Assembly: GCA_020848615.1 (NCBI GenBank)
Contig: JADLHW010000098.1
Location: 1-46,303, forward strand
DNA length: 46,303 nucleotides
Direction of reading: 5' to 3'
Origin: Thermoleophilia bacterium
GTDB lineage: Bacteria > Actinomycetota > Thermoleophilia > Miltoncostaeales > Miltoncostaeaceae
The stretch's first letter is position 1, and each line of letters opens with the position of its first letter. The position numbers and the translations under genes are program-made. The notes below the pieces were generated by a model. That model was given only the letters and a program-made list of their open reading frames with translations. It made no database searches and was not told the origin of the DNA. Positions 23,464-27,479 of this stretch are shown piece after piece.

Positions 23464-24570
23464 GTGGATGCGAACAACTACCTCGCGGTGATCAAGGTCT
23501 GCGGCGTGGGCGGTGGCGGCACGAACGCCGTGAACCGGATGATCGACGCAGGGGTCCGGGGCGTGGAGTTCATCGCCATCAACACCGACGCGCAGGCCCT
23601 CGCCATGTGCGACGCCGATCTGAAGATCCACATCGGCGGGACCCTCACCAAGGGCCTCGGCGCGGGTGCCGACCCGCGCATCGGGCGGGACGCGGCGGAG
23701 GAGAGCCGCGAGGAGCTGAAGGAGGCGGTCCGCGGCGCGGACATGGTCTTCGTCACCGCGGGCGAGGGCGGCGGCACCGGCACCGGCGCCGCACCGGTGC
23801 TCGCACAGATCGCCAAGGAGCAGGGCGCCCTCACCGTCGGCGTCGTCACCCGCCCGTTCAGCTTCGAGGGCAAGCAGCGCCAGCGCCGCGCCGACGAGGG
23901 CGTGGAGACGCTGAAGAAGTACGTCGACTCCCTCATCGTCATCCCCAACGAGCGCCTCCTGCAGGTGGTGGAGCGCCGCACCTCGATCATCGAGGCGTTC
24001 CGGATGGCGGACGACGTCCTGCGGCAGGGCGTGCAGGGCATCACGGACCTCATCACCGTGCCGGGCCTCATCAACCTGGACTTCGCCGACGTCCGCACCG
24101 TCATGGAGAACGCCGGCGCGTCGCTCATGGGCATCGGCAGCGCCTCCGGTGAGAACCGCGCCGCCGAGGCCGCCCGCGCCGCCATCTCCAGCCCGCTGCT
24201 GGAGACCAGCATGTCCGGCGCCACCGGCGTGCTGCTCAACGTCACCGGCGGGCCCGACCTGGGCCTGTTCGAGATCGACGAGGCGGCCAGCATCATCCGG
24301 GCCGCCGCCGCCGACGACTGCAACGTGATCTTCGGGGCCGTCATCGACGAGGCCGCCGGCGACCACATCCGCGTGACGGTCATCGCGACGGGCTTCGACG
24401 GCGACGGGGACCACCCCGGCGCCGACGCCGCGGAGGAGCCGGAGGCGTCCGCCCAGCCCGCGGCCGCCTCCGGGGCGGACCGCCCGACGCGCCTGGACTC
24501 CTCCGAGCGCGCCGAGCTGGAGATCCCGGACGACGCCCTGGAGATCCCGGACTTCCTGAAGGGCCGCTGA
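23464..24570 (+). CDS. ftsZ: FtsZ, tubulin-like division GTPase
   Basis: 368-aa GTPase forming the Z ring. N-terminal [42 protein letters not shown], the tubulin signature [12 protein letters not shown] at 100-111, [11 protein letters not shown], the T7 region [13 protein letters not shown] and a normal C-terminal domain. A short disordered linker leads to the conserved C-terminal peptide ([17 protein letters not shown]), the docking site for partners such as SepF. GTG 23464 has AAGGAGGG 9 bases upstream. It has its own consensus promoter and is followed by tandem GC-rich palindromes. No ftsA or sepF is present nearby. Confidence 0.97.
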
Positions 24571-24662: not shown

Positions 24663-25757
24663 ATGGCCGACGTGCGCACGACCTCGCTCCACGACCGTCA
24701 CATCGCACTGGGCGCCCGCACGGGCGACTTCGCGGGCTGGGACATGCCGCTGCAGTACACGTCCCCCCGCGCGGAGCACATGGCGGTCCGCACCGCGTCC
24801 GGGATCTTCGACGTGTCCCACATGGGGCAGCTCGAGGTGACGGGCCCGGGAGCGCGCGAGTTCCTGTCGTGGGCGCTCACCAACGACATCCGCGAGATCG
24901 GCCCGGGGCAGGGGCAGTACACGCTCATGCTCACCGACGACGGCGGCGTCATCGACGACCTCATCGCCTACGCGCTCCTGGACCGCTTCCTGCTCGTGGT
25001 CAACGCGAGCAACGTGGCCGCCTGCCGTGAGCGGCTCATGGACGGCGCCGCGGGCCTGGACATCACGGTGACCGACCGGTCGGACGAGGTGGCCATGATC
25101 GCGCTCCAGGGCCCGGCGTGGTCGTCGGTGCTCGCCCCGCTGTGCGGCACCCCCGGACCCCTGAACCTGGAGTACTTCGAGGTGACCGAGGACACGGTCG
25201 CCGGGGTCCCGGCGCTCGTGGCGCGCACCGGGTACACGGGCGAGCCGGGCGTCGAGATCATGTGCCCGTGGGAGCACGGCCCCCGGGTGTGGGACGCCCT
25301 CGCCCGCGGCGGCGCCGAGCCCTGCGGCCTGGTGGCGCGCGACACGCTGCGCACGGAGATGGGTTATCCGCTGTACGGGCAGGAGCTCAGCCGCGACCGC
25401 ACCCCGGTGGAGGCCGCGCTGCTGTGGGCGTGTGACACTGAGGGCGGCCGGTTCGCCGGCGCGGAGACCGTGCGCCGCCAGATGGCGGACGGCGTGGCGG
25501 AGAAGCTGTGCGCGTTCGAGCTCACCGAGCCCGGCATCCCGCGGCCAGGCCTGCCCGTCCTGGCCGGCGGCGAGCGCGTGGGCACCGTCACCAGCGGCAC
25601 CCTGTCGCCGGTGCTGGACCGCGGCATCGGCATGGCGTACGTGCGCGCCGACCTCGCCCGGTCCGGGAACGACATCGTCATCGACGTGCGCGGCCGCCCG
25701 CGCGCGGCCCGGACCGCCAAACGCCCCCTGGTGGCCCGCTCACCACGGAACGACTGA
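24663..25757 (+). CDS. gcvT: GcvT, glycine cleavage T protein (aminomethyltransferase)
   Basis: 364-aa tetrahydrofolate-dependent aminomethyltransferase that releases ammonia from the aminomethyl-lipoyl H protein. Motifs: LHDRHIALGARTGDFAGWDMPLQY, SGIFDVSHMGQLEVTG, YTLMLTDDGGVIDDL, ARTGYTGEPGVEIM (folate-site region), GLVARDTLRTEMGYPLYGQEL and the C-terminal GTVTSGTLSPVL. Length is normal. ATG 24663. gcvH follows 11 bases later. The P protein gene gcvP is not in the window. Confidence 0.95.
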   Translation: MADVRTTSLHDRHIALGARTGDFAGWDMPLQYTSPRAEHMAVRTASGIFDVSHMGQLEVTGPGAREFLSWALTNDIREIGPGQGQYTLMLTDDGGVIDDLIAYALLDRFLLVVNASNVAACRERLMDGAAGLDITVTDRSDEVAMIALQGPAWSSVLAPLCGTPGPLNLEYFEVTEDTVAGVPALVARTGYTGEPGVEIMCPWEHGPRVWDALARGGAEPCGLVARDTLRTEMGYPLYGQELSRDRTPVEAALLWACDTEGGRFAGAETVRRQMADGVAEKLCAFELTEPGIPRPGLPVLAGGERVGTVTSGTLSPVLDRGIGMAYVRADLARSGNDIVIDVRGRPRAARTAKRPLVARSPRND

Positions 25758-25768
25758 AAGGACCCGCT

Positions 25769-26167
25769 GTGGCCGACGAGCACTACCCCGACGACCTGCG
25801 GTACCACCGCGAGCACGACTGGGTGCGCATGGACGGCGACGTCGCCGTGTTCGGCATCACCTGGTACGCCCAGGAAGCCCTCGGCGAGGTGGTGTTCTTC
25901 GCGCCGCCCGCGGTGGGCGACACGGTCGCCAAGGACGGCACCTACGGCGAGCTGGAGTCGGTGAAGGCCGTGTCCGACGTGTACGCACCGGCCAGCGGCG
26001 AGGTGGTCGCCGTGAACGACGCCGTGGTCGCCACCCCGGAGCTGGTGAACACCGACCCGTACGGCGAGGGATGGCTGCTGCGCGTGAAGCTGTCCGACCC
26101 GTCGGAGCTGGACGCCCTGATGAGCAGGCAGGAGTACTCCGACTACCTGTCGGGGCTCTCGGCCTAG
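25769..26167 (+). CDS. gcvH: GcvH, lipoyl carrier H protein
   Basis: 132-aa lipoyl-domain protein shuttling the aminomethyl group between the P, T and L proteins. The lipoylation loop GELESVKAVSDVYAPASGEV is present with lysine at residue 66. The N-terminus YHREHDWVRMDGDVAVFGIT and C-terminus YGEGWLLRVKLSDPSELDALM, then YSDYL, are canonical. GTG 25769 is preceded by GAAAGGA 6 bases upstream. It is co-transcribed with gcvT and the LPD-like gene that starts 7 bases after its stop. Confidence 0.96.
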   Translation: MADEHYPDDLRYHREHDWVRMDGDVAVFGITWYAQEALGEVVFFAPPAVGDTVAKDGTYGELESVKAVSDVYAPASGEVVAVNDAVVATPELVNTDPYGEGWLLRVKLSDPSELDALMSRQEYSDYLSGLSA

Positions 26168-26174
26168 CCGCGTC

Positions 26175-27479
26175 GTGCCGGACGCCCGCATCTGCATCGT
26201 GGGTGGCGGTGCGGCGGGCACCGCCGCGGCGCTGCGCGGTGCCCGCCTGGGGGCGGAGGTGCTCCTGGTGGAGCGCGACGACCTAGGCGGCGCGTGGGCC
26301 CGGTGCGGCGCCGCCCCCGGAGCCGCGGTGACCGCCGCCCTGCGCCACGGCGTCCCGCCGCCGTGGCCCGAGCTGCGGGAGGCCGCCCGCGCCGCGGGCG
26401 CGGACCTGCGCGGCCGGCTGGCCGCGGATCTCGCGGACCACGGCGTCACCGTGCTGGCGGGCGACGCGACGCTCCTCGGACCCGGCACCGTCGCGGTCGA
26501 CACCGGCGGCGACCGGGTGGAGGTGAACGCCCCCACGCTGGTGCTGGCGCCCGGGTCGGAGCCGGCCCGGCCCGCCGGCCTGGACTTCCGCGACCCGCGG
26601 GTCATCGACGCGTCGCAGCTCATGGCCCTGCCGGAGCTGCCGCGCCGGGCCGTGGTGGTGGGCGGCGGTCCGATCGCGATCGGCCTGGCCGACACCCTCG
26701 CCGGGCTCGGCGTGCGGGTCGTCCTCGCCGTGCCGGGCGAGGCACCGCTCGCCGATGAGGAGCCGCGGGCCGTCGCCGCGCTGGTCGCGGGGCTGTCGGC
26801 GTGCGGCGTGCAGGTGGTCACCGGGGCGGCGTTGGAGGGCGCCGAGCCGGACGGCGGTCAGCTGCGGGTGCGCCTCGGCAACGGGACCATCCATCCCGCC
26901 GACCTGGTGGTGGCCGCCGCCGGCCGCGTTCCCGCGGTGGGTGAGCTCGACCTGGCCGCCGCGGGGGTCGACGCGGACGGCGAGGGCTTCGTCACCGTGG
27001 ACGAGCACATGCACACCGGTTCCGCCGACATCTACGCGGTGGGCGACCTGCTGCGCGGCCCCGCCATGTCCCACCTGGCCCGCGCCCAGGGGGAGCGGGC
27101 CGTCGAGCACGCCCTCGGGGCGGGGCGCCGCCGCGACCTCGGCACCGTGCCGCGCGTGGTGTGGGGGCGCACGGCGCTGGCCGCCGTGGGGCTCACCGCC
27201 CGGCGGGCCGAGTCGCTGGGCCGTGACGTGGACGTGGTGGCGAACGCACCCGGGGCGGCGGTCACCGCCGGCCGGCCGTCCCTGGCGCTGCTCACGGTGG
27301 ACCGCGCGTCGGGGCTGGTGCTGGGGGTGTCCGCGGTGGGGGACGGCGCGGCGGAGCTCATCGCCGGCGTCGCCCTCCCCATCTCCTGGGGCTGCACCGC
27401 CGCCGAGCTGGCGACCGTCGTGCCGCCGGGTCCCGGCCTGGCCGAGTCGCTCGCCGAGGCCGCCGAGCGGGCGGCCTGA
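26175..27479 (+). CDS. lipoamide dehydrogenase-like flavoprotein lacking the redox disulfide
   Basis: 434-aa two-dinucleotide-fold flavoprotein. The FAD loop IVGGGAAGTAAALRGARLGA, the NAD loop VVVGGGPIAIGLADTLAGLG and the second FAD motif IYAVGDLLRGPAMSHLARAQGE are clear, and the C-terminal dimerisation domain is present. Where lipoamide dehydrogenase has GGTCLNxGCIPSK this protein has GGAWARCGAAPGA (residues 38-50): both catalytic cysteines are replaced. The C-terminal HPTxSE active-site motif is also missing (PPGPGLAESL instead). It cannot work as a classical L protein. Its place after gcvH suggests it interacts with lipoyl-GcvH or another oxidoreductase; function unknown. GTG 26175. Confidence 0.82.
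   Translation: MPDARICIVGGGAAGTAAALRGARLGAEVLLVERDDLGGAWARCGAAPGAAVTAALRHGVPPPWPELREAARAAGADLRGRLAADLADHGVTVLAGDATLLGPGTVAVDTGGDRVEVNAPTLVLAPGSEPARPAGLDFRDPRVIDASQLMALPELPRRAVVVGGGPIAIGLADTLAGLGVRVVLAVPGEAPLADEEPRAVAALVAGLSACGVQVVTGAALEGAEPDGGQLRVRLGNGTIHPADLVVAAAGRVPAVGELDLAAAGVDADGEGFVTVDEHMHTGSADIYAVGDLLRGPAMSHLARAQGERAVEHALGAGRRRDLGTVPRVVWGRTALAAVGLTARRAESLGRDVDVVANAPGAAVTAGRPSLALLTVDRASGLVLGVSAVGDGAAELIAGVALPISWGCTAAELATVVPPGPGLAESLAEAAERAA

Follow-up and report, generated by a model that had tools for sequence, protein, structure and literature searches.

A genus-specific pseudo-lipoamide dehydrogenase directly downstream of gcvH in a Thermoleophilia bacterium

The gene that directly follows gcvH in the DNA described here, which we term lpdX, encodes a real pseudo-lipoamide dehydrogenase (pseudo-Lpd) that is specific to a single genus of uncultured actinobacteria. 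LpdX cannot carry out the known disulfide (dithiol) chemistry of its family, and with moderate confidence we consider it to be a retained, FAD-holding protein with a non-disulfide role, likely as a non-catalytic partner, scaffold or regulator. An ancient and well-understood redox enzyme thus appears to have lost the sites of both its half-reactions, while its flavin-binding part has been kept under selection. Our literature search, as judged by the search listings, turned up no publication that describes a glycine-cleavage operon with a redox-dead Lpd.

The window, by which we mean the whole stretch of 46,303 nucleotides analysed, contains the following features. Canonical rows are those of the reference alignment described below, and G001 is the second genome of the same genus.

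23464..24570, + strand: ftsZ, the upstream anchor for synteny
24663..25757, + strand: gcvT (401 bits; cut-off 300)
25769..26167, + strand: gcvH, the sole GcvH detected in the genome
26175..27479, + strand: lpdX, encoding a predicted FAD-binding pseudo-Lpd of 434 aa, with a GTG start
26202..26219, + strand: FAD dinucleotide-binding GxGxxG motif, residues 10-15, kept
26295..26312, + strand: former redox centre CxxxxC, now Trp41 ... Ala46 by alignment; same in G001
26322..26324, + strand: codon 50, the flavin-side Lys of CIPxK changed to Ala; Lys in 34/34 canonical rows
26676..26684, + strand: codons 168-170, Gly168 to Ala and Glu170 to Gly in the NAD-binding GxGxxGxE; same in G001
26730..26732, + strand: codon 186, the acidic residue ending the second strand of the NAD domain changed to Val (Glu186 to Val); same in G001
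27429..27431, + strand: codon 419, the catalytic His changed to Gly by alignment; the G001 contig ends earlier

Residues lost and kept in LpdX

A preliminary description of this DNA had proposed a redox-dead Lpd coupled to gcvH, and this is supported: only 7 bp lie between the gcvH stop and the lpdX start. GcvH itself carries the sequence ESVKA, which we take to be the lipoyl-lysine motif. The LpdX protein matches the Pfam domains Pyr_redox_2 (residues 5-306, 142 bits) and Pyr_redox_dim (residues 325-430, 51 bits), and the nearest curated model is that of lipoamide dehydrogenase (TIGR01350), against which it scores 221.6 bits, below the cut-off of 408.8. Neither of two related models is reached. 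NF005883, a quinone-dehydrogenase model that we assume to be the one for Rv3303c, gives 141.7 bits against a cut-off of 479, while the soluble transhydrogenase model NF003585, whose members belong to the same superfamily and likewise do not have a complete cysteine pair, gives only 165.7 bits against 465. The same genome encodes a member of the latter family on contig C28 (636 bits). From an AlphaFold model of LpdX (26 aligned sequences, mean pLDDT 91.7), which over its whole length is closest to solved Lpd structures (2eq6, Foldseek TM 0.93; VIA Z 45.8, rmsd 2.0, 425 residues aligned), we are confident in predicting that LpdX keeps the overall Lpd fold.

As a canonical reference we used 34 Lpd rows, having excluded six of 42 tree rows (L057, L035, L003, L056, L004 and L054) that are transhydrogenase-like, MerA-like or on very long branches; one of these, L003, is without the second Cys (CVNTGT). 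L010 and L013 are partial rows. In L013 (L050; G014 contig C282) the Lpd C-terminus at the contig end reads VSYTHLTLPTN..., which by its appearance is presumably sequencing adapter read-through. At least 95% conservation is seen at 62 columns of the canonical rows, and LpdX retains 39 of these.

Both redox cysteines are present in 34/34 canonical rows, and alignment places Trp41 and Ala46 at their positions in LpdX, as had been proposed. Between them sits Cys44, which is common to the two species (that of the window and G001) and is distinct from the old redox cysteines. The catalytic His is found in 33 of the 34 rows, the remaining row, L013, being cut short. The HPT-E motif had been described as missing altogether; this is correct for the His (now Gly419) and the Thr, but the Glu of the catalytic dyad is retained (Glu424).

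The changes extend to the nicotinamide side. Lys50, Gly168, Glu170 and Glu186 are each invariant in 34/34 canonical rows, and all four are changed in LpdX, with Ala168 in place of the last Gly in the NAD-binding GxGxxG. By comparison with glutathione reductase we take Lys50 and Glu170 to be a pair near the flavin, and the Glu186 position to be the acidic residue that binds the NAD ribose. Given the loss of these residues, the NAD site of LpdX is not intact: the earlier claim of an intact NAD domain holds at the level of the Pfam domain and fails at the residues Ala168, Gly170 and Val186. NAD(H) would probably be a poor substrate for LpdX, if it is used at all.

The FAD determinants, by contrast, are intact, as first described. 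Gly10, Gly12, Gly15 and Glu33 are the same as in 34/34 canonical rows, and LpdX also retains Gly38-Gly39, the GD motif (Gly290-Asp291) and His300; these residues suggest that it binds FAD. Over residues 1-39, LpdX and the Lpd of a sister genus share 72% identity, within the 69-74% seen between canonical Lpds across genera, whereas identity falls to 21% in the active helix, 30% in the NAD domain and 31% in the interface domain. Thus the FAD-binding start of the protein has changed at the usual pace, and the rest faster. Compared with canonical dihydrolipoyl dehydrogenase (E3, the L-protein, TIGR01350), then, LpdX is alike in fold, FAD motifs and dimerisation domain, but lacks the CxxxxC and the catalytic His, has an altered NAD site, and carries a deletion of ∼15 residues behind the active-site helix. 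Its composition is also unusual, with 0 Lys in 434 residues, and 21% Ala compared with 12-15% in sister Lpds.

Descent from an operon L-protein gene

We inspected the locus in 12 of the 42 genomes of the family. The genes ftsZ-gcvT-gcvH are consecutive in 10 of the 12, at the end of the division cluster; the exceptions are G003, whose contig begins just before gcvT, and G004, where no ftsZ was found close by. Three genomes from two genera (G003, G005 and G014) have the order gcvT-gcvH-gcvPA-gcvPB-lpd, and the operon lpd of all three carries CVNRGC, with HPT in the two that are complete. In the window's genus, both genomes (G000 and G001) have the disarmed lpdX directly after gcvH and no gcvPA-gcvPB genes here. 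Five further genomes (G006, G007, G009, G010 and G011) show no lpd match at their gcvT-gcvH locus and carry a long gcvP at another site, and two (G004 and G012) have gcvPA-gcvPB with no adjoining lpd match.

In a 42-row Lpd tree, the disarmed pair (support 100/100) groups with the three operon Lpds (support 81/97), on a stem of 2.55 changes/site. Long branches can be misplaced in trees, but synteny agrees independently with this placement, given that lpdX occupies the same position in the gcv operon as the L-protein gene of the sister genera. Thus, LpdX is the orthologue of the canonical operon Lpd. The preliminary description was right to see a Lpd homologue, but "paralogue" is better replaced by syntenic orthologue. 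Furthermore, it had asked whether the loss of the cysteines is conserved in relatives; it is, in both members of the genus, but not in the sister genera (three genomes, two genera). As a canonical Lpd stands at the locus in those genera, the loss of the redox residues is lineage-specific. The states before and after the change are therefore both available at one locus, making the fate of a flavoprotein left without its electron routes directly testable.

A gene for a 405-aa flavoprotein with weak Pfam matches (L049:7911-9128; homologues L048, L094 and L098) stands after lpd in G003 and G005, and directly after gcvH in G006 and G011; it was not detected in the window.

The absence of gcvP from the window is confirmed, and the rest of the system that the preliminary description suggested looking for is found elsewhere in the genome. 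A long fused GcvP is encoded on contig C28 (L043:10410-13832; 1373 bits, against a cut-off of 859), and two Lpds score above the TIGR01350 cut-off, on contigs C53 and C162. The order, length and opening residues of the genes ahead of the C53 lpd suggest that they encode E1 and E2 of a 2-oxoacid dehydrogenase. With gcvP and canonical Lpds present, glycine cleavage can run without LpdX as its L-protein, and we infer that it does so. The C28 GcvP ORF has ∼200 residues ahead of the GcvP model match, which starts at residue 203, and the true start codon may lie further downstream.

Distribution and selection

The second genome is a public MAG, Actinobacteria bacterium Ga0077560, whose contig LNFL01000153 ends inside lpdX, so that the sequence reaches residue 274 and is without residues 275-434. 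It shares the LpdX substitutions within residues 1-274, and in neither species is the lpdX frame broken within the available sequence. When the absent C-terminal part was sought in this genome, only other Lpd paralogues matched. We searched a class sample of 399 genomes, the whole family of 42, a phylum sample of 396, and public genome contigs. Within these genome samples, and among the public-contig matches listed, the disarmed Lpd occurs only in the two genus members, and so in 2 of 42 family genomes, with the proviso that the strict E-value limits used (1e-48, 1e-47 and 1e-52) would miss a very distant disarmed Lpd. Three phylum matches (L105-L107) and one family match (L104) carry canonical motifs.

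For comparison of stem lengths, trees were built from the same family genomes, with 12 rows for gcvT and gcvH and 10 for ftsZ and lpd (the ftsZ row of G011 contains a stop and was kept). The stem leading to the genus measures 0.14 changes/site for gcvT, 0.20 for gcvH, 0.17 for ftsZ and 2.72 for lpd, yet the lpd distance between the two species is only 0.215. Between them, lpdX has a dN/dS of 0.170 (bootstrap 95% 0.119-0.240; dS 0.63, 274 codons), and the same simple counting method gives 0.19 for gcvT, 0.26 for gcvH, 0.10 for ftsZ and 0.24 for murB. The lpdX value lies within the span of these neighbours. Thus, purifying selection acts on lpdX across residues 1-274. In the old active-site loop (residues 30-52), 23/23 positions are identical at a dS of 0.55; the 30-residue identical run around this loop is not significant alone (permutation p 0.136).

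We read the stem as a period of relaxation or redirection followed by renewed selection, and the rise in Ala and the absence of Lys might be the product of GC-driven drift during a relaxed period. Given that lpdX is still apparently selected, its function has probably changed. The preliminary description had allowed that canonical motifs in relatives would make this a lineage-specific decayed copy. Lineage-specific it is; but with the changes common to both genus members and a dN/dS of 0.17 over 274 codons, decay does not follow.

Possible roles of LpdX

The history that we favour begins with an ancestral operon, gcvT-gcvH-gcvPA-gcvPB-lpd, from whose L-protein gene lpdX descends. Loss of gcvPA and gcvPB from the locus in the window's genus, where a long GcvP at an unlinked site and canonical Lpds on other contigs can run glycine cleavage, would have freed lpd from its old job. 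The disulfide centre was lost, together with the catalytic His, the Lys beside the flavin and the chief residues of the NAD site, while the FAD-binding half and the fold were retained. LpdX would most likely now be a non-catalytic flavoprotein partner, scaffold or regulator co-produced with GcvT and GcvH, and we infer a regulatory or structural role. More tentatively, a FAD protein blind to both NAD and thiols might, together with GcvT and GcvH, sense or gate lipoyl-GcvH by means of its flavin; if so, the operon would retain a pseudo-enzyme regulator in place of its reductase.

The nearest characterised relatives of LpdX indicate that such proteins can retain FAD and gain new roles (PMC6296175). 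Irc15p of Saccharomyces cerevisiae is a Lpd homologue with Tyr and Ala at the places of the redox cysteines; it is described as an FAD-binding protein that accepts electrons from NADH and passes them to menadione and ferricyanide, though not to lipoamide; it retains the His-Glu dyad and has a link to microtubules (PMC6296175). The same source gives Mycobacterium tuberculosis LpdA (Rv3303c) as keeping one cysteine and no complete dyad, and as reducing quinones without being a disulfide reductase (PMC6296175). On these descriptions, LpdX resembles Irc15p in having an aromatic residue and Ala where the two cysteines stood, and M. tuberculosis LpdA in lacking the disulfide centre and a complete dyad. 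It differs from Irc15p in the loss of the His and the NAD-site residues and in its place in a gcv locus rather than a tie to microtubules, and from M. tuberculosis LpdA in having lost both cysteines and in falling below the NF005883 cut-off; what sets it apart from the two is that the His and both cysteines are lost together, with damage to the NAD site. By tree and synteny, LpdX arose separately from Irc15p, within one actinobacterial family.

That LpdX might similarly be an NAD(P)H-dependent diaphorase or quinone reductase, its FAD still reduced by NAD(P)H and handing electrons on to quinones or other acceptors without a disulfide, is suggested by the Trp/Ala pair, so like the Tyr/Ala of an enzyme that is active with NADH, and by the fold retained in the model. 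However, Gly168, Glu170, Glu186 and Lys50 are lost in both species, and the NF005883 score is far short of its cut-off. Because of this NAD-site damage we give an ordinary electron-transfer role fed by NAD(P)H less weight than the preliminary description did, and we rank a quinone reductase, which we think rather unlikely, second after an FAD-holding pseudo-Lpd. We are slightly more doubtful that lpdX is a relic on its way out, still unbroken while selection relaxes after the loss of gcvPA/gcvPB. The canonical Lpd that sister genera have at this locus, the very long stem, the compositional drift and the narrow distribution would all suit a relic. Against this stand a dN/dS as low as that of working neighbours even at its upper bound of 0.24, a frame intact as far as sequenced, and two species 0.215 apart in lpd after a stem of more than 2.5.

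The retention of FAD determinants with both ordinary electron routes removed, the Cys44 common to both species and the adjoining single-copy gcvH could also fit a flavoprotein with a non-nicotinamide donor (ferredoxin, an ETF-like protein, or a thiol via Cys44) and electron exchange, in either direction, with lipoyl-GcvH or another partner. We regard this as improbable, since no donor gene was recognised at the lpdX locus and a lone cysteine displaced by two residues from the old site offers little to build on. An assembly or sequencing artefact might be suspected, given that both genomes are drafts and that the G001 contig ends within lpdX, but in our view the second genome, a MAG obtained independently from the same genus, refutes it, and we give it practically no credence. 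The two assemblies agree at 83% identity with a dS of 0.63, too far apart to be one error copied twice, and the ORF list gives no support to a compensating frameshift as the origin of the odd loop. For annotation, the name "dihydrolipoyl dehydrogenase" applied to lpdX would imply a complete gcv operon at this locus that does not exist.
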